Part shown: piece after piece, positions 2,071 to 43,459 of the stretch | Position numbering within the stretch: the first letter of the stretch is position 1 | Layout of the letters: each line of letters starts with the position of its first letter | Source: Streptomyces lincolnensis | GTDB taxonomy: Bacteria > Actinomycetota > Actinomycetes > Streptomycetales > Streptomycetaceae | Direction: 5' to 3' | NCBI RefSeq assembly: GCF_001685355.1 | Contig: NZ_CP016438.1 | Location: 8,990,001-9,054,000, forward strand | Length of the DNA stretch: 64,000 nt | Position numbers and translations under genes: made by a program | Notes under the pieces: generated by a model | Databases searched by the model: none | What the model saw: only the letters and a program-made list of their open reading frames with translations | Told to the model about the DNA's origin: nothing

Positions 2071-5000
2071 CTAGCGCACCGTGCGGTACGCCGTGCGGAT
2101 GGTCTCCGCGGCGGTGTTGCCGTCGGTGTCGGTCAGGGACGCCCGGAAGGAGACGGTGCCGGGCTTCCTCGGGTGGGTGAGGGTCAGGTACCGCTTGCCG
2201 GCGCGGTCCATGTGGATGCCGACCGTCTTCCAGGTGCGGCCGCCGTCGTACGACACACGCACGGTCAGTGCCTTCAGGTGGCCCTTGGCCGCGGCGGGGC
2301 CCTGGAGCGACAGCGGCACCGTGACGCGGGCGCCCGCCTTGGCGGTGTCGGTCAGGCTCAGCTTCGGGTGGAAGCGGACGACGGAGAGCGGGAAGGGGAC
2401 GCCCTTGGTCTCACCGTTGTCGCGGGAGGTGAAGGTCCACACCGCGTCCACGTGGCCGCTGGTCCGGTAGTCCTTGGTGCGGTCGGTGCTGATGGACAGC
2501 CGGTAGCGCGTCGAGGCGGCGGGCAGGCCGCCGTAGACGCTCAGGCAGGTGTCGTCGGTGGTGGAAAGGAAGACCCGGGAGCCGGAGCTGAGCCGTGTGG
2601 TGATCGTGGCCTGGGGGACGTAGGCGAAGTTGCCCGGGCCGTCGGAGAACATCGGCACGCATACGTAGGAGTACCCGCCGAGCCGTTTGGCCCCGGTTCC
2701 GGACGCCGGTGCGACGGCCGGGCCGTGCACGCCGCCGTTGAAGGCGACCCGGTACGTGCGGCCCGGCTCGAAGCGGCGGGCGGTGAGGAAGGAGGCCGTG
2801 TCCTCGTTGTGCGAGCCGTTGGCGATCCGGGCGCCCAGGTTCCAGCGCAGGCCGCGGTCGGTGCTCAGGTACTGCACGAGCGAGGCGGTCGGCGCCGGGC
2901 GCTGGAGGCCTTCCGAGAAGATGGACGCCCGGTCGAGCTCCGCCCAGGCCGGAGTGGACCAGCTCACCTGGGGAGCGGCGGCGGCCCGGGTCAGGGTGGT
3001 CGCGACCGAGGTGTTCACCCGGGCCATGTCCCGGGTGGTGGAGAAGGCGCGGTTCAGGCCGGTGAAGAAGGAGCCGGCACGGGTGGCGACCAGGTTGTAC
3101 GTCGGTGAGGTGGCGGTGCGCTGCCAGATCCCGCCGAACTGGGCGACGAAGGAGCCTGCCGCGGTGCCGGAGCCGATCTGGCCGAGGGCGGTGTCACCGG
3201 CGTCGACGGAGTTCCCGCCGACGTAGTCGTAGGCCGGCTTGGCACCGTGGGCCGCGAAGAGGACCTGTGCGTCGCGCGAGGTGGCCCGGCGGTCGGGGGC
3301 GGTGACCTTCACCGGCTTGGCCCTGCGCCCGTCGAGGGCGAGATCGGTGTCGTGGTCGAGCAGTAGGCGGGGGGCCACCAACAGGGCAGTCTTGCCCCGG
3401 GGGTCGATGGTCTGGGCGTCGATCACATAGTGGCCCTTGGGCAGCCGCACGCTCGCGGTGCCGTCGGGGTGGTTCCTGTCGTCGTCGAACGGCGTGTACT
3501 GCTTGCCGGTGTCCAGGTTCGCCACGGTGACACTGGGTGCGTCGTCCCGCTTGCCGTCGCGGCGGGTGACGGTCAGCTTCAGCTTGTACGACTCCACTTC
3601 ACGGATGACGCCCAGGGCGGTGCGCACGCTCTGCCCGTCGCCGCTCGCGGTCACCGCGCCGGAGTAGGCGCCGTCCACGCCGCCGAGCCGGGTGTCGGCG
3701 GTGACCGTGGCCTGCGCGGTGCCGCCGGCCGGGACGGTCAGCCGGGCCGGGGAGACCGTGAACATGCCGCCTGGTGCGCTGCCGCTGTCGGGGCCGGTGA
3801 CATCGGAGGTCAGGTCCAGGGTGACGGGCTCGGGGCCCGAGTTGCGGTACGTCAGCGTCCGGGCCCTCGGCCGGTCGTCGTCGTGCGGCCAGGAGGCGGT
3901 GCCGAAGCCGACGGAGGCCGGCTCGGTGGTGACGTCGGTGCCGGTTGCCCGGGTCAGGTCGACCCGGCCCGCCCCGACCTCGTACGCGGTGGTGCCGGTC
4001 AGCGGCTTCGCCGAGGCGGTCAGCGCGGCTTTGATCCGCTCGCCGGTCCAGTCGGGGTGCTCCTGGGCGAGGATCGCGGCGGCGCCCGCGGTGTGCGGGG
4101 TGGCCATCGAGGTGCCCGACATCGTCACGTATCCGGGCGCCACCTCCTCGCCCTCGCTGCCGTGGGCGGCCCTCGCGGCGACGATGTCGACACCGGGCGC
4201 GGCGATGTCCGGCTTCAGGGCGCTGTCCGCGGTCGGGCCGCGGCTGGAGAAGTCGGCGACCTTGTCGTGCCGGTCCACCGCGGCGACGGTCAGGGCCGAC
4301 GCGGCCGAGCCCGGAGTGCCGACCGTGCCCCCGGAGGGGCCCTCGTTGCCCGCGGCGATCACGAACAGGGCGTGGGAGGAGGCCGACAGGTCGTTCACGG
4401 CCTTCTCCAGCGGGTCCACCGCCGGGGTGTCCACGTCGCCCAGGCTCATGTTGACGACCTTGGCGCCCTGCGTCACGGCCCACTGCATACCGGCGATGAT
4501 CGCGGAGTCGGATCCGACGCCGGTGTCGTCCATGACCTTGCCGACCAGCAGCTTCGCGCCGGGCGCCACGCCCTTGTACGTGCCGTGGCTCTTCGCACCG
4601 GAGCCGACGATGGTGGAGGCGACGTGGGTGCCGTGTCCCTGCCTGTCGTCGGTGGAGCTCGTGCCGGTGTCGGAGTCGGAGAAGTTCTTGGCCTTGAGGA
4701 TGCTGCCCTTGAGGTCCGGGTGGGTGGCGTCGACACCGGTGTCCAGGACGGCGACCTTCACACCCTTGCCGTCGTAGCCCTGTTTCCAGGCCGCGGGGGC
4801 ACCGATCTGCGCTACCCCGCCCTGGGGATCGGGAGTGCCGCTGTCCTCTACGGCAGCCTCGACCCGCCCGTCGAGCCACACCCGGTCGATGCCGGGCGCG
4901 GCGGCCACGGCACTGCCACCGGTGACCGTGTCCGTCAGCGCCCGCCACACGTCGCCGGCGTCCGCCTTCTCGGCGGTCAGCGCCTCGCCGCGGACGGCGG

Positions 5001-34847: not shown

Positions 34848-36056
34848 CTACTCACCGCCCAGCCACAGATCGGGGCCGAAGACCTCGTAGTGCACGGCGT
34901 GCGCGGGCAGGCCCCGGCGGAGCAGGTCGCCGCGCACCGCGCGCATGAAGGGCAGCGGGCCGCACAGGTACGCGGTCGCCTCGGCGGGCAGGTCGAGCGT
35001 GGACACGTCGGCCTGGCCCGGCGACGCCTCCGGTGCGGCGGCACCCGGCTCCTCGTACCAGAGGTGCAGCCGGGCGTTCGGAAGCGACTCGACGAGTCGG
35101 CGCTGTTCGTCGCGGTGGGCGTGGTCGGCCGGGGTGCGGTCGGCGTGCATCACGATGACCCGGCGGGTGGTGCCCGTGGCGGCCAGGTGGTGAAGCATGG
35201 GCAGCATCGGGGTGATGCCGATCCCCGCGGACGCCAGCAGCAGGGGCCCGTCGCCGTCCGGCAGGACAAGGTCCCCGAAGGGGGCGGAGACGCCGAGCGC
35301 GTCACCGGGGCGGGCGTGCTCGTGCAGCCAGGACGACACCTCGCCCTCCGGTCCCGCTCCGGCCCGCACCCGCTTGACGGTGATGCGCCAACGCGGGTCC
35401 TCCGGCGCGCCGGAGAGGCTGTACTGCCGTATCTGGCGGGCGCCGTCGGGGAGTTCGCCCCGGACGCTGACGTACTGGCCCGGGCGGAAGGCTCCCGCAG
35501 GGGTGCCGTCGGTGGGGCGCAGCAGGAGGGAGACCGCGTCGCGGGTCTCCTCGTGCCGCTCGACGATGTCCAACTGCCGCCATGCCCCGCCTTCCACGGT
35601 GCCGGCCTCCTGGTACAGCCGGGCCTCCAGGGCGATCAGGGCGTTGGCCATCAGCCAGTACACCTCGTCCCAGGCGGTGGCCACCTCGGGCGTGACCGCG
35701 TCACCGAGGACGTCGCCGATCGCCGCGAAGAGATGCTGGTGGACGAGCTTGTACTGGCCGGAGGCGATGCCGAGCGAGGCGTGCTTGTGGGCGATCCGGG
35801 AGAGCATCGTGTCCGGCCGGGACCCGGGGTGTTCGATCAGCATGCCCGCGAAGGCCGCGATGGAGCCCGCCAAGGCCTTCTGCTGTTCCCCGGTGGCCTG
35901 GTTGCCCCGGTTGAACAGGTCCCGCAGCAACTCGGGTCGGTCCTCGAAGAGTCTGGCGTAGAACCCCTCGGTGATCTCGCCGATGGCAGCGCCGACGACG
36001 GGCAGCGTGGCGCGGACGACCGGAACGGACTGCTCGGACAGCACAGTGTTGCTCAT
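34848..36056 (-). CDS. hmp: Flavohaemoglobin, nitric oxide dioxygenase
   Basis: This 402-residue protein oxidises NO to nitrate using O2 and NAD(P)H. The globin domain carries the proximal His at about residue 92 (IAHKHASLG), distal Tyr at about 33 (GFYARLF) and Gln at about 53 (NRGNQ). The reductase domain has the FAD motif RQYSLSG, the NAD(P) loop LLASAGIGITPMLPML and the C-terminal YEVFGPD. The ATG at 36056 has almost no room for a ribosome-binding site: an NsrR palindrome (36058-36080) sits directly upstream, so the message may be leaderless. Repressed by NsrR (36121), with derepression by NO. Confidence 0.97.
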   Translation of the reverse strand: MSNTVLSEQSVPVVRATLPVVGAAIGEITEGFYARLFEDRPELLRDLFNRGNQATGEQQKALAGSIAAFAGMLIEHPGSRPDTMLSRIAHKHASLGIASGQYKLVHQHLFAAIGDVLGDAVTPEVATAWDEVYWLMANALIALEARLYQEAGTVEGGAWRQLDIVERHEETRDAVSLLLRPTDGTPAGAFRPGQYVSVRGELPDGARQIRQYSLSGAPEDPRWRITVKRVRAGAGPEGEVSSWLHEHARPGDALGVSAPFGDLVLPDGDGPLLLASAGIGITPMLPMLHHLAATGTTRRVIVMHADRTPADHAHRDEQRRLVESLPNARLHLWYEEPGAAAPEASPGQADVSTLDLPAEATAYLCGPLPFMRAVRGDLLRRGLPAHAVHYEVFGPDLWLGGE

Positions 36057-36057
36057 T

Positions 36058-36080
36058 AATAGGTAGATGATCTTCGTATT
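36058..36080. promoter_or_regulatory. NsrR box at the hmp promoter
   Basis: 11-1-11 inverted repeat: left AATAGGTAGAT, centre G, right ATCTTCGTATT. Nine of eleven positions pair, and the repeat extends outward with TT and AA. It abuts the hmp start codon. Confidence 0.85.
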
Positions 36081-36120
36081 AAAGGAGAGGGTGGAGGTCG
36101 ACGCTGGGACCTACTCCCGC

Positions 36121-36564
36121 TCAGGTGGCGCGGCGGCCGACCAGTCCCACGAGGACGGGGCCGGTGGGCGACGTCACCAGATCGGTCACCGTCAACGGGT
36201 CGAGAGTGGCGTAGAAGGCTTCCTGGGCCTCGCGCAGGGCCCGGCGCAGTCGGCACGCCGCCCGCAGTGGGCACGGTGGATCGTCGTCGCAGGCCACGAC
36301 CTCACCCTCGCCCTCCAACTCCCGCACCAGCCAGCCGACCGAAGCATGCCGACCCAGCTCGGTCAGCTCCAACCCGCCACCGCGCCCCCGTCGGGCCTCC
36401 AGGACGCCGAGGTGTTGCAGGCGGGTGATCGCCTTCGCCATGTGGGTGGCGGGCACGCCCATGGTCTCCGCCACCTCTCGGGTGGTCAGAGGCTCGTCCT
36501 GCTCGGAGACCGCCAGGCGCATCACGGCACGGAGCGCCAGGTCGGTGAACTTCGTCAGTCGCAC
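36121..36564 (-). CDS. nsrR: Rrf2-family NO sensor NsrR
   Basis: This 147-residue iron-sulphur repressor has an N-terminal winged HTH (LTTREVAETMGVPATHMAKA, residues 26-45). The three cluster cysteines are C92, C98 and C104 in ACDDDPPCPLRAACRL, the spacing of Streptomyces coelicolor NsrR, whose [4Fe-4S] cluster is destroyed by NO. It sits upstream of hmp on the same strand, with separate 11-1-11 boxes before each gene. The box at 36580-36602 before nsrR indicates autoregulation. The regulon in this organism is likely restricted to NO detoxification. Confidence 0.95.
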   Translation of the reverse strand: MRLTKFTDLALRAVMRLAVSEQDEPLTTREVAETMGVPATHMAKAITRLQHLGVLEARRGRGGGLELTELGRHASVGWLVRELEGEGEVVACDDDPPCPLRAACRLRRALREAQEAFYATLDPLTVTDLVTSPTGPVLVGLVGRRAT

Positions 36565-36579
36565 GCAAGGACGCTATCA

Positions 36580-36602
36580 AATGCGAGTTTCAGACTCGTG
36601 TT
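36580..36602. promoter_or_regulatory. NsrR box at the nsrR promoter
   Basis: Left arm AATGCGAGTTT and right arm AGACTCGTGTT around one base; 8 of 11 positions pair. It overlaps the stop codon of the upstream membrane protein gene. Confidence 0.78.
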
Positions 36603-37906
36603 TTGGGGGCTCGCCGCTCCGCAGCCTTCTCGGGCTCCGCCTCAGCGGGGATGCGGTGCAGCCCTTTGCGGTCGTACCAGTTCGTCACGCCGAAGCCGAA
36701 CAGCGCGGCCGCCGCGAGGCCGACGGCCATCATGACCCAGCCCCGGGTCAGGCCGGCGTCGCCCTGGGCGTCGTAGTAGAGGATCGAGCGGAGGCCGCCG
36801 GTGAGCTGGCGCAGGGGCTCGAACTCCGCGAGGAAGCGGTAGAAGCCGGGCAGCGCCTCGACCGGTGTGGTGGCGCCGGCTGTCGGTACCGCCATCGCGA
36901 TGAAGACGAGTGTGACCACCAGCATGCCGGGGGTGCCGAAGACGGCGAGGAGGGTGAGCGCACCGATTCCGGAGACCGCGATGGCGCACACCGAGTACAG
37001 CCACAGCAGGGGCAGGTGCGAGGCGTCCATGCCCATGAGGCCGACCGCGCCCGCCAGGACCAGGGTTCCCATCAGCAGGGACAGGGCGGCCATGAGGGTG
37101 CTGCCGAGGGCGAGGGTCTGCACGCGGGTGGCCCGGATCAGCGGGCGGTGCAGGCGCAGGGGGCCCATGTCGTTGTGGGTGTAGCCGAGGGCGTGGTCCA
37201 CCTGGCCGCTGATGACGTTGGCGGAGAGCATGCCGCAGACCACCAGGACGAGCGCGTAGTAGAACGCGGTCAGGCCCAGGCCGCTGTGCGAGTCGAGGGG
37301 ATGGCCGTCCTCGACGGTGACGGCGGCCGGGTCGGTGAGCAGGAGGCGTGCCGCGGCGGGCAGTTGCGCCTGCGTCGTCCCGCCCTGGGATGTGAGCTCC
37401 TTGCCCACCTGGAGCGAGGCACGCTCGGCCGCCTGTGTCGTCGCCGTCCGGGCCAGGCTTGAACCCATGCTGCCGGCGGACTGGTTGGTCAGCACCGTCA
37501 AGGTCGGGCGGGTCGGCGCCCCGGTGGTCGCGGTGCCGGTCAGCGCGGTGGTGGCGGAAGTGAAATCGGCGGGGATGACGAGCGCGCCGTACAGCTTGCC
37601 CTTGCCGAGTTGTTCCTTCATCTCCTTCTCGTCCATCACCTTCCAGTCGATCTTGTCACCGCTCGCGGTGGACTTCTTGATCGACCCGGTGATCTGTGCC
37701 CCCAAGTTGACCCGCTCGCCGCCGACAGCGGCCCCCTTGTCGGCGTTGACCAGCCCGACGGGCAGGTTCTTCAGGTGGCCGACCGGATCGATGTTGGCGC
37801 CGACGTAGAACACGGTGAACAGCAGCGCGAGTACGCCCGTGATGACGCCGTTGGCGATCCACAGCGGTTTGGCGCGCAGGACGCGGAAGGGGTGAATGCC
37901 ACTCAT
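36590..37906 (-). CDS. YhgE/Pip-type (DUF3533) membrane protein
   Basis: This 438-residue protein has one helix at the N-terminus (about residues 18-38), a large extracytoplasmic domain (about 40-220, with VGLVNADKGAAV) and five or six helices at the C-terminus. It belongs to the SNG1/YhgE/Pip group related to ABC-2 permeases, often linked to export or phage adsorption. It has lost the long coiled-coil middle of classical Pip and is compact. Its ATG overlaps the ferredoxin-like gene's stop by 4 bases (37903-37906), so the two are translationally coupled. Transported compound unknown. Confidence 0.88.
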   Translation of the reverse strand: MSGIHPFRVLRAKPLWIANGVITGVLALLFTVFYVGANIDPVGHLKNLPVGLVNADKGAAVGGERVNLGAQITGSIKKSTASGDKIDWKVMDEKEMKEQLGKGKLYGALVIPADFTSATTALTGTATTGAPTRPTLTVLTNQSAGSMGSSLARTATTQAAERASLQVGKELTSQGGTTQAQLPAAARLLLTDPAAVTVEDGHPLDSHSGLGLTAFYYALVLVVCGMLSANVISGQVDHALGYTHNDMGPLRLHRPLIRATRVQTLALGSTLMAALSLLMGTLVLAGAVGLMGMDASHLPLLWLYSVCAIAVSGIGALTLLAVFGTPGMLVVTLVFIAMAVPTAGATTPVEALPGFYRFLAEFEPLRQLTGGLRSILYYDAQGDAGLTRGWVMMAVGLAAAALFGFGVTNWYDRKGLHRIPAEAEPEKAAERRAPKTRV

Positions 37907-39027
37907 GACGTACGGGTCTCTCGCTCGGGGGACGCGGAAGGTTTGGCCGGGGGCTGCCAGCCGCCGGTGACTTCCTTGACGGGCTTGTGGGGGAAGCGGC
38001 GTCGGGCGTACTCCTGCGCGTGGGAGTCCGGCAGGACGTAGAGGGTCTCCTTCTTGTCCTGGAGCGGCCGCAGCACGGTGTCCATGAAGGTCTTGCGGTC
38101 GTCCAGGTAGGGGCCGAGGACATCCTCGCCGCCGGGGCAGACGGCCAGGCAGTAGCCGGACTTGTAGCCGGGGGGAGAGGTCAGGCTCTGCCACATGGAG
38201 GCGCTCTCGGAGTCGGTGACCCGGGAGCGGTAGTCGGCGGCGTCCTCGCTGTCGGCCACGGTCTGCGCCCAGTCGGTGAACCCGCTCATGAACTCGCGGT
38301 AGTTGTGTGTGGTGCAGGCCAGTGCGTCGAAGGCGCCGTCCTTGGCGATGGCCCCGACCGGGCAGGCGGCGACGCACAGTTTGCAGTCGATGCAGGGGTT
38401 GTAGTCGAGCGCCTGTCCGTACGCGCTGACCTCGGCGTCCACCAGGACGGTCGCCAGCAGGATGAAGTTGCCGAATTTGGGGTGGATGACGTTGCGGTGC
38501 AGGCCCATCACGCCGAGCCCGGCGGCCACGGCGACCGTCTTGTGCGCCACCACCCAGATCCGTTCGCTGGGGAAGCGGTCCATCTCCTGGGGGAAGCCGA
38601 CCGACGGGTTGAGCGCGCGGTGGCCGGCGTCCTGGAGCGCCTGAGTGACGCTGCGGGCGGCGTGGTTGGCCTGCTCGTCGGTCTGATGGAACTCCTGGTT
38701 GGCCACGCTGCGGGCGGGAGAGCGGCAGTTGTCGCGGTTCATCCGGAAGGCCATCGCGATCAGGGTGCGGGTGCCGGGCAGCGCGGACCGCACGTGCTCG
38801 CGCTCGCCGGCCAGGTCGGGGTGGTCCAGGCTCACCGCGGCGGCGTCGTCCGCACCGGCGGACAGGCACAGTTCGCGCAGCCAGGCCGCGTCGATCACCG
38901 GCGGCGGGCTCGCGACATCACCCGCCGCGCGCCGGGCGAGCACGGCCCGCACGGACGGGTGGGCGGCCAACTTGGCGGGAAGCCTGGGACCCGACGGGTG
39001 CCCCTCGGGGTCGCGCGCGGCAGTCAT
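37903..39027 (-). CDS. 4Fe-4S reductase, QueG-like/reductive-dehalogenase-like
   Basis: This 374-residue protein has an N-terminal region of the QueG/reductive dehalogenase type (RTLIAMAFRMNRDN; GVMGLHRNVIHPKFGNFI). A ferredoxin domain follows with CIDCKLCVAACPVGAI (about residues 240-255) and a second half-motif GYCLAVCPGGED. No obvious cobalamin histidine motif is visible. It is co-transcribed with the DUF3533 membrane protein through a 4-base overlap, an unusual pairing. The tandem palindromes at 39074-39111 lie in its promoter. It may reduce a xenobiotic that the partner exports; that is inference. Confidence 0.8.
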   Translation of the reverse strand: MTAARDPEGHPSGPRLPAKLAAHPSVRAVLARRAAGDVASPPPVIDAAWLRELCLSAGADDAAAVSLDHPDLAGEREHVRSALPGTRTLIAMAFRMNRDNCRSPARSVANQEFHQTDEQANHAARSVTQALQDAGHRALNPSVGFPQEMDRFPSERIWVVAHKTVAVAAGLGVMGLHRNVIHPKFGNFILLATVLVDAEVSAYGQALDYNPCIDCKLCVAACPVGAIAKDGAFDALACTTHNYREFMSGFTDWAQTVADSEDAADYRSRVTDSESASMWQSLTSPPGYKSGYCLAVCPGGEDVLGPYLDDRKTFMDTVLRPLQDKKETLYVLPDSHAQEYARRRFPHKPVKEVTGGWQPPAKPSASPERETRTS

Positions 39028-39073: not shown

Positions 39074-39111
39074 AAACCGATCGGTTTTCACCACCGTAAA
39101 CCGATCGTTTT
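39074..39111 (-). promoter_or_regulatory. Two-palindrome promoter module, copy A
   Basis: Palindromes AAACCGATCGGTTT (39074-39087) and AAACCGATCGTTTT (39098-39111) have centres 24 bp apart. On the minus strand, TTGCCC, 18 bases and TACGGT form a -35/-10 pair enclosing the upstream palindrome. It matches 42690-42738 in layout and sequence. Confidence 0.8.
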
Positions 39112-39217
39112 TCGCGGGCAAGTCTGAGGATGCCAAGCCGTGGGCCGTTCCCGGGGCGACAGTGTGATGGCCTTGGGTCGACAGTGTGATGGCCCTGGGG
39201 CGGACGCGGCCCCGCGT

Positions 39218-39928
39218 CTACGCCGAGGACTCGCCCTGTCGGCAGGCGCGGCGATGGTGGCGACGGTGGTTCGCGTCCTCCTGGGCCAGCCGTCGCAGGA
39301 GCCTGACGACCGGCTCGAAGAGGGCGGACAGGAGCACCGCTCGCTCGGCCAGGGCGATCCGGTCCTCGATACCGTCGAGTTGGGCGAAATCCAGGTCCGC
39401 GGTGGAGGTGGCGAGCCGCGCGTAGGGGAGGAGGTCGTCGGCCGTGTAGTCGGCGCCGAGGCGCCCCAGTGCCGCGAGACTTTCGGCCAGCGCCGGGCGG
39501 TGCGGCGACGCGTCGGAGATCTGCCAGCCCATGCTCGCGATGAGCGTCTCGACCCGTGCGGCGGGCTCATCGCCCGACGTTGCCTCGTCTGCGGCGCTGT
39601 CGGGGTCGGTATCGCCGCGGTCGCCCCGGTCGCCCGGTCCGCTCTTGTCCGCGGAGGGCACCGGCAGGGCGTGGTGGACGACGCCCAGGGTCTCGAACGC
39701 GTCCAGCGGACGGTCGACGGCGTCGAGCACTTCACGGGTCCGGGCGACGGACAGTCCGCCGAGCTGGATGAGGGAACGGATCAGGCGAAGTCGCTGGATG
39801 TGCTCCTCGCCGTACTCGACCGCTGTCGGGTTCAGCGCGCGGCCCTCGGGGAGCAGTCCCTCCCGCCGGTAGTACTTGATGGTCGCCACCGGCACCCCGG
39901 ACCGCCGGCTGAGCTCTGAAATCCTCAT
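39218..39928 (-). CDS. MerR-family regulator
   Basis: This roughly 236-residue protein has an N-terminal MerR HTH and wing (MRISELSRRSGVPVATIKYY; REGLLPEG; EEHIQRLRLIRSLIQLGGLS). The effector domain includes a charged Asp/Gly linker (GDRGDRGDTD). GAGGGAG sits just before the ATG at 39928, which I prefer to the ATG at 39955. It faces away from the DUF6230 operon, with palindromes at 39992-40036 between them. The ligand domain is longer than in metal-sensing MerR proteins and lacks paired cysteines, so a small organic effector is more likely. Confidence 0.9.
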   Translation of the reverse strand: MRISELSRRSGVPVATIKYYRREGLLPEGRALNPTAVEYGEEHIQRLRLIRSLIQLGGLSVARTREVLDAVDRPLDAFETLGVVHHALPVPSADKSGPGDRGDRGDTDPDSAADEATSGDEPAARVETLIASMGWQISDASPHRPALAESLAALGRLGADYTADDLLPYARLATSTADLDFAQLDGIEDRIALAERAVLLSALFEPVVRLLRRLAQEDANHRRHHRRACRQGESSA

Positions 39929-39991
39929 GCGCTCCCTCACGCTCAACTGTCCCATCAGTATCGCGTTACCGGGGGTTGCCCCACCCCTCTC

Positions 39992-40036
39992 GATAGTGCC
40001 ACTATCAGGCACTCGGTAGTGACACTATCGAGTGCC
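39992..40036. promoter_or_regulatory. Palindromes between MerR and the DUF6230 operon
   Basis: GATAGTGCCACTATC (39992-40006) is a palindrome around a 3-base centre. A 29-base inverted repeat (40008-40036; arms GGCACTCGGTAGTG and CACTATCGAGTGCC) has one mismatch. Both share GATAGTG/CACTATC, centres 23 bp apart. Confidence 0.7.
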
Positions 40037-40265
40037 TCTCCGGTATGCCCGCTCATCGGTATGCCCGCTCTTCCGTACGCGCGGACCACACGCTCCCGCG
40101 CCGCGGAGGACATCGGCGTCACCGCGGCGCACCCAGCCGCCGTTCCCCCCCCCACCCCCATCCAGTCGCCGTTCCCTCACCCCGTCCCGGGCCGGTCAGC
40201 CCTGGGCCCGGTCACCGCGTACGCCTCGTATACCTCGTACGCCTCGAACAACGGAGGACCACCCC

Positions 40266-40880
40266 ATGTCCCAGCGCATCGGCAAGACCCACTGGAAGCG
40301 TTTCGCGGTCGGTGTGGTGCCGACCGCGGCCGCCACGGCGGCGGTCGCCGTTTCCATGGCCCAGGGCGCGCTGGCCGCTTCGTTCAGCATCTCCGGTTCC
40401 GACTTCCAGGTCTCGGCCGGCAAGTTGAGCGGCACCGGATTCGGCAACTACGCCACCGTGGACGTCGCCAAGAACGGCAAGCGCGTGCCCGTCTCCGTCT
40501 CGTCCATCAAGGACGCGAGGGTCACCGACATGTGCCAGTCCGTGCCGGTGGACATTCCCATGCTCGGGATCTACACGATGACGCTCAAGGCCGGCGGGTC
40601 GGGCACCCCGGTCAAGGCCAAGAACCTGTTCATCGACATGACCGACCTCCAGGCCAAGTCCGGCACCTTCAGGAACATCGACATCGGCGTCGCCGCCGGC
40701 TCCATGACCAAGGGGCAGCTCAACCCGAAGGACCACGTCGACCCCAACGGCTACGCGCAGGAGGCGGAGTCGGTCGAGATCATCGACGCCCACCAGCGGG
40801 TCTGGGCCACGACCGCCGGCACGTTCGAACTGTCGGGACTGCACATGAACATCGCGGCCGGCCGTCACGACTGCTTCTGA
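40266..40880 (+). CDS. DUF6230 secreted protein
   Basis: This 204-residue protein has a basic start, a hydrophobic stretch (VVPTAAATAAVAVSMAQGAL) and a cut near ALAAS. The mature part is beta-rich and ends GLHMNIAAGRHDCF. Old annotations call such proteins cholesterol esterases, without catalytic residues to support it. GGAGG eight bases before ATG 40266 sets the start. It heads an operon with DUF6114 and a Pro-rich protein. The trio recurs in Streptomyces; its role is unknown and probably cell-surface. Confidence 0.9.
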   Translation: MSQRIGKTHWKRFAVGVVPTAAATAAVAVSMAQGALAASFSISGSDFQVSAGKLSGTGFGNYATVDVAKNGKRVPVSVSSIKDARVTDMCQSVPVDIPMLGIYTMTLKAGGSGTPVKAKNLFIDMTDLQAKSGTFRNIDIGVAAGSMTKGQLNPKDHVDPNGYAQEAESVEIIDAHQRVWATTAGTFELSGLHMNIAAGRHDCF

Positions 40881-40937
40881 CCACGCTCCGCCCCCCCCAC
40901 GGACGCCATCGCCCCCTCACGACTTGAGAGCTGCCCC

Positions 40938-41423
40938 ATGACGAGTGCCGCCGCGCCCGCGCACCCCCACAGTGACAGCGGCTTCACCCGCATCCGCCGG
41001 AACTTCCGGGCCTGGCGGCACACCCGGCCCTTCTGGGCGGGTCTGCTGGTGCTCCTCGCCGCCGCGCCCATCATCTACTTCCCGTACTTCAACCTCTCCC
41101 TCGGCGCCCTGTCCGTGGCGATGTCCACCACGGCGGGAGCCGGGTCCCTGGTCATCGGCCTCACGCTGATCGTCCTCGGCGGGCTCCTGTGGTTCCAGCC
41201 GGTCATCAGGTTCTTCGCAGGCTGCGTCGCCGTCTTCCTCGGAGTGCTGTCGCTTCCCATCTCCAACTTCGGCGGGTTCTTCGCCGGCACGCTGCTCGCC
41301 GCCACGGGCGGGCTCCTGGCCCTGGCGTGGGGGACGGTGGACGGGCCCGCGCAGGACATACCCGACGACACGGTGACGGCGTCGGCCACCGACGACCGGG
41401 AGGGAGGGCGGGGGAGTGAGTGA
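40938..41423 (+). CDS. DUF6114 membrane protein
   Basis: This 161-residue protein has four hydrophobic helices (residues about 32-48, 53-75, 78-98 and 103-130) after a cytoplasmic start rich in His and Arg (RIRRNFRAWRHTRPFWAGLL). The acidic tail ends just as the next gene begins, with an 8-base overlap. DUF6114 proteins almost always follow DUF6230 genes, as here, so they probably act together at the membrane. No function has been shown. Confidence 0.9.
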   Translation: MTSAAAPAHPHSDSGFTRIRRNFRAWRHTRPFWAGLLVLLAAAPIIYFPYFNLSLGALSVAMSTTAGAGSLVIGLTLIVLGGLLWFQPVIRFFAGCVAVFLGVLSLPISNFGGFFAGTLLAATGGLLALAWGTVDGPAQDIPDDTVTASATDDREGGRGSE

Positions 41424-42678
41424 CCAGTCGCCCGACACCGGCGGTCAGACCGCGCCACCCCGCCTCGTCCGGCCGCCGAGAGGTCGCCACGCCATCCCTC
41501 GTGCGTCCGCGCTGACGCGCCTGCGCCTGCCCGTCGGCAAGGCTCTCGCGCTGACCACGTTGCCGACCGCTCTCATCCTGGGAAGCCAACGCCTGCCCGT
41601 CGCCGACACGAGCGCCACCGTGGCCCACTCGGCACGCGAAAAGGCACCGGGCGGTGGACCCGGAGCCGACGCCGTCGACTGCGCTCGTCCCGACGACGCA
41701 CCACCCTCGGCCGCCGCGACGTCCCCAAGTCCCACTCCGTCCGCCGACCCCGCCAAGTCCGGCGCCTCCCTGAGCGGAGCCCCCGCCGATCCGTCGGAGC
41801 GCCTGGGCGACGAGGAAACGGGCCCCGCCCCGGCTACGACCGCCACCCCGACTCCCTCGCCGAGCCCGAGCTCCGCCACCACCGGCCTCGCGGATCTCCT
41901 CGGCCCTCTCTTCCAGGACGACACCGAGCGGAACACCCCGGCCCCCGACGCGAACCCCTCGCCGGTCTCGCCCCCTCCCACGGCACAGCCCACATCGCCG
42001 TCCGTCCCGCGGCTGCCCGCGCCCCACCCGCCACCTTCACCCACCCACCGCACCGCCGAGCGGTCGCCCAAGCCGTCACCGTCGCCCGATCCGTCGCTCA
42101 GGACGGACTCCCCCCGAGGAGACGCCCGCAACGCCCGCACCTGCGACATCAGCGATCTCAAGGCCCCCGAGGACCGGCGGGCCGGCCGCTTCTCCGCCGA
42201 GCCGTGGACGATGCGGGGGAGCCGCCTCGACCTGCACGGCCTCGTCTTCCACGGCGTGGTGACCGTGGACACGGCCGCCGGCCCCAAGCGGGTGCTCAAG
42301 TTCTCCGCCACCGCCGTCTCGATCCGCGACCTGAGGATGTCGGTGCCCGTCGGTCCGCAGATCCAGCACATCGACGGAGCGCCGGGCTCCACGTCCACGC
42401 TGCGAGGCGACGAGATCACCATGTATGTCGAAAGTCTGACGGGCACCCTCGCCAGCGTCGAGAACCTGCCCACGCCGCCCGTCCTCCGGCTGCACCTCAC
42501 GCCCGACACCGTGCCGGAGTGGCTCTACGACACGGTCGGCAAGCTCGGTGCCACCCTGCGGCTCGGCCTGAACGACGCCGAGATCGACCAGGCGGGACAG
42601 ACCGGTGGGGAACTCATCGTGCCGGGGATCCACGGGTACGGCACGCCCCGCGGAGCATCCCACGAGACGCCCCGGTGA
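41416..42678 (+). CDS. Proline-rich secreted protein of the DUF6230/DUF6114 operon
   Basis: This 420-residue protein starts at GTG 41416, inside the end of the DUF6114 gene. An N-terminal Arg-rich region and a hydrophobic segment (LALTTLPTALILG) may anchor or export it. A low-complexity Pro/Ser/Thr stretch (about residues 80-230) precedes a folded C-terminal domain (about 240-410, including LHGLVFHGVVTVDTAAGPKR and SIRDLRMSVPVG). That domain resembles the DUF6230 style of beta-rich fold in composition. Likely a wall-spanning partner of the two proteins before it. Confidence 0.82.
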   Translation: MSDQSPDTGGQTAPPRLVRPPRGRHAIPRASALTRLRLPVGKALALTTLPTALILGSQRLPVADTSATVAHSAREKAPGGGPGADAVDCARPDDAPPSAAATSPSPTPSADPAKSGASLSGAPADPSERLGDEETGPAPATTATPTPSPSPSSATTGLADLLGPLFQDDTERNTPAPDANPSPVSPPPTAQPTSPSVPRLPAPHPPPSPTHRTAERSPKPSPSPDPSLRTDSPRGDARNARTCDISDLKAPEDRRAGRFSAEPWTMRGSRLDLHGLVFHGVVTVDTAAGPKRVLKFSATAVSIRDLRMSVPVGPQIQHIDGAPGSTSTLRGDEITMYVESLTGTLASVENLPTPPVLRLHLTPDTVPEWLYDTVGKLGATLRLGLNDAEIDQAGQTGGELIVPGIHGYGTPRGASHETPR

Positions 42679-42689
42679 AGCAGCCGCAC

Positions 42690-42738
42690 TTGCATTTTGA
42701 AAACCGATCGGTTTACGGTTGTGGAAACTGTTCGGTTT
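42690..42738 (+). promoter_or_regulatory. Two-palindrome promoter module, copy B
   Basis: TTGCAT (42690), 18 bases and TACGGT (42714) form the promoter. AAACCGATCGGTTT (42701-42714) and AAACTGTTCGGTTT (42725-42738) have centres 24 bp apart. This mirrors the minus-strand module at 39074-39111, including the spacer sequence. Confidence 0.8.
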
Positions 42739-42757: not shown

Positions 42758-43459
42758 ATGACCGCACTGAAGGGTGCCCACGTCCTCGTCACCGGTGGCA
42801 GCCGCGGTATAGGCAAGGCCCTGGTGGAGGAGCTCTACGCGCGCGGCGCCGGCAAGGTCTACGCCACGGCCCGCGACCCGCGTGCCGTGACGCACCCCGA
42901 CGCCGTCCCGGTGGCGCTGGAGGTCACCGACCCGGCGTCCGTGGCGGCCGCCGCCGCCCAGGCGGAGGACGTCACCGTACTGATCAACAACGCCGGGGCG
43001 GTCGTCGGCGCGTCCTTCCTGGATTCCCCGGTCGACGACGTGCGCCGGGAGTTCGAGACCAACTTCTACGGCCCGCTGCTTGTCGCCCGCGCCTTCGTGC
43101 CGGTCATCGAGCGCAACGGCGGCGGCCACATCCTCAACGTGCACTCCGTGCTGTCCTGGCTGGCCCTCGGCGGCTCCTACAGCGCCTCCAAGGCCGCCCT
43201 GTGGTCGCAGACCAACTCCCTGCGTCTGGAGTTGCTGCCGCGCGGCATCGCCGTCACCGGACTGCACGTGGGGTACGTCGACACGGACCTGGCGGCGAGC
43301 GTCGACGCCCCCAAGGCCGACCCGCGTGACGTCGCCGCACTCGCCCTCGACGGCATCGAGGCGGGGGCCCACGAGGTGCTCGCCGACGACATCTCCCGGC
43401 AGGTCAAGGCGGGCCTGGCCGGGGACCTCGCCGGCCTGTACCCCGAGCTGGCGAAGTAG
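42758..43459 (+). CDS. Short-chain dehydrogenase/reductase
   Basis: This 233-residue SDR has cofactor loop VTGGSRGIGKAL, NNAG in VLINNAGAVV, Ser in HSVLSWLA and YSASKAAL. GGAGG five bases before ATG 42758 fixes the start. Its promoter is the two-palindrome module that also controls the 4Fe-4S/DUF3533 operon 3.6 kb away, so all three should respond to the same repressor. A xenobiotic or quinone substrate would suit both transcripts. It is followed by galU with its own start signals. Confidence 0.93.
   Translation: MTALKGAHVLVTGGSRGIGKALVEELYARGAGKVYATARDPRAVTHPDAVPVALEVTDPASVAAAAAQAEDVTVLINNAGAVVGASFLDSPVDDVRREFETNFYGPLLVARAFVPVIERNGGGHILNVHSVLSWLALGGSYSASKAALWSQTNSLRLELLPRGIAVTGLHVGYVDTDLAASVDAPKADPRDVAALALDGIEAGAHEVLADDISRQVKAGLAGDLAGLYPELAK

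Follow-up and report, generated by a model that had tools for sequence, protein, structure and literature searches.

A paired-palindrome promoter module in Streptomyces lincolnensis and the TetR-family regulator predicted to control it

In a 64,000-nucleotide stretch of the Streptomyces lincolnensis genome (positions 8990001-9054000 of the single 10.32-Mb contig; hereafter, the window), two divergent promoters, at 39.07 kb on the minus strand and at 42.70 kb on the plus strand, each carry a pair of palindromes related to AAACCGATCGGTTT. By sequence comparison, these modules belong to a conserved TetR regulon that is real and whose regulator can be identified. Both are very probably promoter-operator cassettes of this one regulon, in which the target genes would be locked by two operators each and the regulator would repress its own synthesis through a single one. 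Such a regulon can look ownerless within one window because the regulator lies elsewhere.

The promoter module in the window

The window contains five matches to AAACCGATCGGTTT at up to three mismatches, compared with a mean of 0.67 and a maximum of 3 in 100 shuffled controls, and four of these make up the two pairs, 39074/39098 and 42701/42725. As the initial annotation of the window had it, the centres of the paired palindromes are 24 bp apart at both promoters, and the bases that separate the palindromes are nearly alike (ACGGTGGTGA and ACGGTTGTGG). Each pair includes one imperfect palindrome, AAAACGATCGGTTT with one mismatch and AAACTGTTCGGTTT with two. The TTGCxx and TACGGT elements that had been proposed for both promoters are present in each, whereas the proposed 18-bp spacer is found only in the plus-strand copy, the minus-strand copy having 17 bp. 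The elements and the target genes are as follows.

39116..39121, minus strand: -35 element TTGCCC of promoter 1, 17 bp from the -10 element
39098..39111, minus strand: operator O1 of promoter 1 (AAAACGATCGGTTT), between the -35 and -10 elements
39093..39098, minus strand: -10 element TACGGT of promoter 1, sharing the last base of O1
39074..39087, minus strand: operator O2 of promoter 1 (AAACCGATCGGTTT), located at the expected transcription start or shortly past it
37903..39027, minus strand: RED, the promoter-proximal gene of the target operon, for a 4Fe-4S protein with a relationship to epoxyqueuosine reductase (QueG)
36590..37906, minus strand: DUF3533/YhgE-Pip-like membrane protein, the start of which overlaps the RED stop codon (ATGA)
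42690..42695, plus strand: -35 element TTGCAT of promoter 2, 18 bp from the -10 element
42701..42714, plus strand: operator O1 of promoter 2 (AAACCGATCGGTTT)
42714..42719, plus strand: -10 element TACGGT of promoter 2
42725..42738, plus strand: operator O2 of promoter 2 (AAACTGTTCGGTTT)
42758..43459, plus strand: SDR oxidoreductase (NCBIfam NF006119, PRK08264.1-5), the second target

Sites across the genome

Mismatch searches of the whole genome yielded 12 sites with at most one mismatch, against 0.24 expected from the base composition (71% G+C; 70.9% in the window). All 12 could be placed: nine lie within five doublets and three stand singly before TetR genes. A paired motif that is common and randomly placed, which the initial annotation had named as the outcome contradicting a shared regulator, is therefore not what the genome holds. 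The five doublets include both window modules, in which the fourth half-site has two mismatches; the remaining three are located upstream of an alpha/beta hydrolase gene (L016, 24 bp apart), an NmrA-like gene (L017, 25 bp apart) and an apparently broken gene (L018, 23 bp apart). In L018, where doublet and gene span 3554-3989, the frame from the ATG at 3659 ends after 37 codons, and a relative (L198) has a gene for a 123-amino acid protein after the module.

When two mismatches are allowed, 22 sites are found genome-wide, compared with one for the reversed control pattern. Ten of these have exactly two mismatches. They comprise the window half-site, which is part of a clear doublet, a member of a weak pair, and eight further sites that may be chance matches. 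The weak pair (L014:1501-1538, genome position 4346527) lies upstream of a flavin monooxygenase-like gene and consists of AATCCGATCTGTTT and AAGCTGGTCAGTTT at a distance of 24 bp; it is not accompanied by TACNNT.

The TetR-family regulator and its own operator

The three single sites precede genes for three TetR paralogues.

L017 3955-4524: TetR paralogue with a single palindrome upstream
L019 3289-3858, minus strand: TetR paralogue with a single palindrome upstream
L020 3528-4097: TetR paralogue with a single palindrome upstream

Exactly these three proteins, none of them encoded inside the window, match the TetR query in this genome at an E-value of 1e-30, and the L017 TetR shares 71% and 59% identity with the other two. 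All three score above the cut-off of 24 bits for the TetR_N helix-turn-helix domain (Pfam PF00440; 37.6, 34.1 and 39.4 bits), and for all of them the best solved relative is PDB 3JSJ, a ‘Putative TetR-family transcriptional regulator' (E-values of 4e-87, 8e-95 and 6e-63). In a tree of 110 sequences, 3JSJ falls inside clade A, paired with the TetR of genome G107, which, together with their full-length similarity to this structure, assigns the proteins to a 3JSJ-type subfamily; the L020 TetR belongs to clade B. An open-access literature search turned up no paper naming 3JSJ and hence no operator or target assignment for it.

The genomic evidence supports the TetR-like regulator that had been postulated. 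Among 30 TetR loci drawn from a protein search with 85 matches (own genome counted in), 27 have a perfect AAACCGATCGGTTT upstream and the other three have versions with 2, 2 and 3 mismatches. The palindrome ends 31-34 bp before the start codon at these loci, and the in-gene control gives 6-7 mismatches. In a larger set of 105 TetR genes, some at loci chosen for the presence of the module, the palindrome is perfect in 83 and has at most one mismatch in 96. The promoter sequence suggests that the TetR message is leaderless and is transcribed from a TAACCT-like -10 element close to the start codon.

Across 74 clade-A and 31 clade-B proteins there is hardly any variation in residues 38-43 (GVSKRS) and in Y45, at the position presumed for the recognition helix in this family. 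Five outgroup TetRs (43-46% identity) carry VARRSLY(E/Q)HF in place of this helix, and a search for more such proteins led to the same five of 199 genomes. None of the five outgroup loci (L202-L206) has AAACCGATCGGTTT within two mismatches; by eye, all five have paired palindromes that start with AGACC or AGAAC and are 26 or 33-35 bp apart. As far as these sequences tell, operator specificity follows the presumed recognition helix.

Co-occurrence of the doublet and the TetR family

In 199 genomes of the same genus, scanned with a strict pair pattern that allowed spacings of 14-42 bp, the pattern matched 48 genomes and the control pattern matched none. Four of the 74 module places were dropped for want of the ATC core (one in G034, two in G062 and one of two in G079), leaving 70 modules in 46 genomes. 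With TetR homologues defined as matches above 150 bits (54 of the 199 genomes), the doublet and the TetR occur together in 46 genomes, the doublet alone in none, the TetR alone in eight and neither in 145 (Fisher 3e-37, a descriptive value given that the genomes are related). Weaker pairs are present near the TetR in three of the eight TetR-only genomes (L208, L210 and L213), and none is present in the stretches fetched for the other five. A sample of 296 genomes from the class gives the same picture, with both in 14 genomes (nine of the same genus), the doublet alone in none, the TetR alone in three and neither in 279; outside the genus (268 genomes), the respective counts are 5, 0, 2 and 261. 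The TetR family is thus represented in every module-bearing genome of both samples. A scan of named genomes, for which 80 of at least 119 stretches were listed, places the module in Streptomyces, Kitasatospora, Streptacidiphilus, Nonomuraea, Actinomadura, Nocardiopsis, Glycomyces, Frankia, Pseudonocardia, Jiangella, Paractinoplanes, Plantactinospora and Lentzea.

Promoter anatomy and spacing

Promoter elements were compared in 135 non-redundant modules, after removal of duplicates with identical proteins or modules and of four modules near a locus end without a visible gene. A TTG is located 17 bp before TACNNT in 103 of these modules, 18 bp in 28 and 16 bp in one, and is absent in three; the TTG was part of no search pattern and is nevertheless found at one of the first two distances in 131 of the 135. 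In all 70 same-genus modules, TACNNT follows palindrome 1 in a single orientation only, and TTTACNNT, on which the search pattern made no demand, stands after that palindrome. Given these positions, O1 fills the spacer between the -35 and -10 elements and O2 lies over the expected transcription start.

The distance between palindrome centres in the 70 same-genus modules is 23-25 bp in 46 cases and 30-37 bp in 24, with none at 26-29 bp. Across the 135 modules, the counts are 22 bp (1), 23 (6), 24 (63), 25 (11), 26 (7), 28 (2) and 29 (2), followed by 30 (5), 31 (15), 32 (6), 33 (7), 34 (5), 35 (4) and 37 (1). An account in terms of helical phase would fit a difference of roughly one turn, as between 24 and 34 bp, but is not claimed here: the most frequent distance in the second class is 31 bp, and the 135 modules include 11 at 26, 28 or 29 bp. 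The palindrome pairs of the outgroup TetRs likewise come in two spacing classes (26 and 33-35 bp).

Target genes

By closest match, the gene after the module is of the SDR type of the window in 82 of the 135 cases, of a second SDR type in 25, like the alpha/beta hydrolase in 16, like RED in six and of some other kind in six. Once homologues whose alignment starts beyond residue 30 are left out, a filter that was applied to the RED and NmrA genes alike, the doublet is found upstream of all 14 RED genes with a readable start and at least 80% protein identity (the window included), although this is a biased draw, most RED loci having been fetched for a nearby module or TetR gene. In 10 of the 13 relatives, the pair before RED fails the strict scan pattern and hence was not selected by it. 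The best solved relative of RED is epoxyqueuosine reductase, over a partial length (E-value of 3.5e-9). Two loci with the module encode RED-like 4Fe-4S proteins with a fused SCP-2 sterol-carrier domain (L085:1-1224 and L093:122-1744). The target set, made up of redox and hydrolytic enzymes and a YhgE/Pip-like membrane protein, suggests, from the protein families represented, enzymatic detoxification of a reactive, hydrophobic compound combined with a membrane or export response.

Under the mechanism proposed here, the 189-amino acid TetR repressor, with 3JSJ as the nearest solved structure, would bind AAACCGATCGGTTT as a dimer. Its synthesis would be self-limiting through the one palindrome of its promoter, the end of which is some 32 bp upstream of the start codon. 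At the target promoters, O1, between TTGCNN and TACNNT, and O2, about 24 bp further on and over the transcription start, would provide a tighter, double lock. A small-molecule ligand would release the repressor and so induce the SDR gene, the RED-DUF3533 operon and the genes for the alpha/beta hydrolase and the NmrA-like protein, in which case the two window transcripts should be co-expressed. We can only tentatively entertain the further possibility that the doublet is a self-contained cassette kept across actinomycete families, that dimer contacts of two kinds lie behind its preferred spacings, near 24 and near 31 bp, and that, with one recognition helix but diverged ligand pockets in the paralogues, several chemical signals would feed into one dispersed detoxification regulon.

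Gene order and the missing local regulator

Between the two window promoters lies a block of four genes (39218..42678) that, as far as can be seen, appears to stand outside the regulon.

39218-39928, minus strand: MerR gene
40266-40880, plus strand: DUF6230 gene
40938-41423, plus strand: DUF6114 gene
41416-42678, plus strand: gene for a 420-amino acid protein

The genes and sites of the relative G159 are arranged as NmrA, doublet, TetR, site, DUF3533, RED, doublet, MerR-DUF6230-DUF6114-420-aa protein, doublet, SDR and hydrolase, that is, the order of the window plus a TetR and NmrA end adjoining DUF3533, with 3.4 kb of additional DNA separating MerR from the RED doublet. Because G159 keeps the window order with the TetR gene next to DUF3533, the window modules can be understood as promoters of a regulon that was once clustered. 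Seven of the relatives fetched hold both RED and SDR. In L127 (S. coacervatus), L119 (S. hokutonensis) and L048, these genes are adjacent and divergently oriented, and the interval contains one or two doublets but no MerR block; they are further apart in L066, L091 (with a fragmented RED), L155 and L163. The four-gene block is inverted nearby in G068 and is found elsewhere, without sites, in G110. That the MerR-DUF6230 block is an insertion peculiar to the lineage of the window is ruled out by G159, which also has it between RED and SDR.

In the window, the block is still flanked by RED-DUF3533 and SDR, each with its promoter, but the TetR-NmrA end is missing; a TetR-doublet-NmrA unit (L017) is located at 9.569 Mb, 0.54 Mb from the window. 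The TetR-NmrA end of a G159-like cluster would, then, have gone from beside DUF3533 in this lineage, and the unit at 9.569 Mb may be its relocated form, the TetR tree leaving the placement of L017 undecided. The initial impression of a regulon without a visible regulator thus holds inside the window and fails beyond it, with relatives keeping the TetR in the cluster and the same genome having the L017 unit. Nor are the modules duplicated, as had been assumed: recent duplication is rejected because each window promoter has its own counterparts in relatives.

Directly after DUF3533, at 34848-36564, the window contains a flavohaemoglobin-like gene and a gene for an Rrf2 family regulator.

Alternative explanations

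Several observations weigh against the interpretation as one TetR regulon. The operator is common to three paralogues in this genome, so that there are three candidates for the repressor acting at the window. Nine of the 105 TetR genes have no palindrome at one mismatch or fewer, and four of them have no recognizable site (one is a fragment and one is at a locus edge). Two RED-like proteins at 58% identity have no upstream site, 13 of 15 rows for NmrA have no doublet of their own, the remaining two rows being one place in this genome, and the module of G386, one of the five outside the genus, has TATGTT instead of TACNNT. The bias in the draw of RED loci has been pointed out above, and the Fisher values overstate independence because the genomes are related. 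The detoxification role rests on family names because the structure model of RED, with a mean predicted local distance difference test score (pLDDT) of 50, is too poor for use.

Of the alternatives, the one with some, if limited, plausibility is that the three paralogues partition the regulon, so that the two window promoters would answer different inducers via different paralogues through one operator. The paralogues, each behind its own palindrome, have indeed diverged and yet share the same presumed recognition helix, and the L020 TetR belongs to a clade many genomes of which have modules with 30-37 bp spacing. However, genomes with clade B only can have 24-25 bp spacing (G016, G020, G033, G045 and G146), those with clade A only can have 30-34 bp spacing (G068, G107 and G108), and genes of the second SDR type are found with both spacings. 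The G159 cluster holds one clade-A TetR among RED, SDR and NmrA, although there is a clade-B TetR elsewhere in that genome.

An improbable variant is that the doublet serves as an activator site or as a platform for a tetramer rather than as two independent repressor operators. The two limited spacing classes, with the 26-29 bp range empty in the same-genus modules, do suggest dimer-dimer contact, but the spacing is not strict, given the 11 intermediate modules in the larger set. TetR proteins are mostly repressors, which counts against an activator, and the placement of O1 in the promoter spacer and of O2 over the expected start would block the polymerase.

It is highly unlikely that the adjacent MerR, or another local regulator, binds both modules, despite the position of the MerR gene between the promoters and of its block between RED and SDR in G159 as well. 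MerR homologues (E-value of 1e-40 or better) are present in 36 of the 199 genomes, and only seven of these are among the 46 that have modules; of three other genomes with close MerR orthologues (81-85%), one, G110, has no site in the 16 kb around MerR. The MerR promoter carries, as was initially noted, dyads of its own (GATAGTG/CACTATC at about 39992-40030) that differ from the module palindromes. MerR-controlled promoters have the dyad within a 19-20 bp spacer between the -35 and -10 elements, and the module, with its 17 or 18 bp spacer and its weak linkage to the MerR gene, is not of this type.

That the palindromes are chance or non-regulatory repeats can be practically dismissed: most of the ten two-mismatch sites, of which a single one is part of a clear doublet and another of a weak pair, would fit this explanation, but the excess of sites at one mismatch or fewer, the palindromes before the TetR genes, the conservation before RED genes and the co-occurrence with one TetR family do not.

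Relation to known systems

The regulatory design, by analogy, appears to be one already known from QdoR (YxaF) of Bacillus subtilis. This TetR-type protein is reported to have a single operator at its own promoter and a pair at the target promoter, the pair increasing repression, and its inducer is quercetin (PMC8481877). The likeness, a lone operator for the regulator and a double one for targets, is one of sequence layout here; the hosts and target enzymes are different. LmrA is a paralogue of QdoR that shares its operators. QdoR is not named among the best 60 of 131 PDB rows for the L020 TetR, which are headed by 3jsj, 3g7r and 3dpj. In Streptomyces, gamma-butyrolactone receptors of the ScbR type are TetR repressors with palindromic operators; the three paralogues score 20.8, 21.5 and 25.6 bits on NCBIfam NF041196, far below the cut-off of 150, and by this model do not class as receptors of this type.

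The predicted operator, promoter design and regulon would apply to a TetR subfamily of 1647 proteins (E-value of 1e-25 or better, the best 120 being listed), a count that reflects protein similarity and not operator use. For use in Streptomyces, the module and its regulator are candidates for a promoter-repressor pair with tight control; the targets form a bounded gene set for finding the inducer.

The open-access literature search yielded no paper that describes this operator, the nearest match being the different site of TTHB023, a TetR protein of Thermus thermophilus. The consensus of TTHB023 is CTGACCGATCGGTCAG, and two of its promoters have two sites each (PMC7022988). This consensus has the ACCGATCGGT core in common with the module palindrome, but its outer bases are CTG..CAG as opposed to AAA..TTT here, and the TTHB023 sites described there are at fatty-acid biosynthesis genes in another phylum. 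A further symmetric variant, ATACCGATCGGTAT, is present in an intergenic gap of the S. lincolnensis genome (L013:1501-1514) and is possibly the operator of another TetR.

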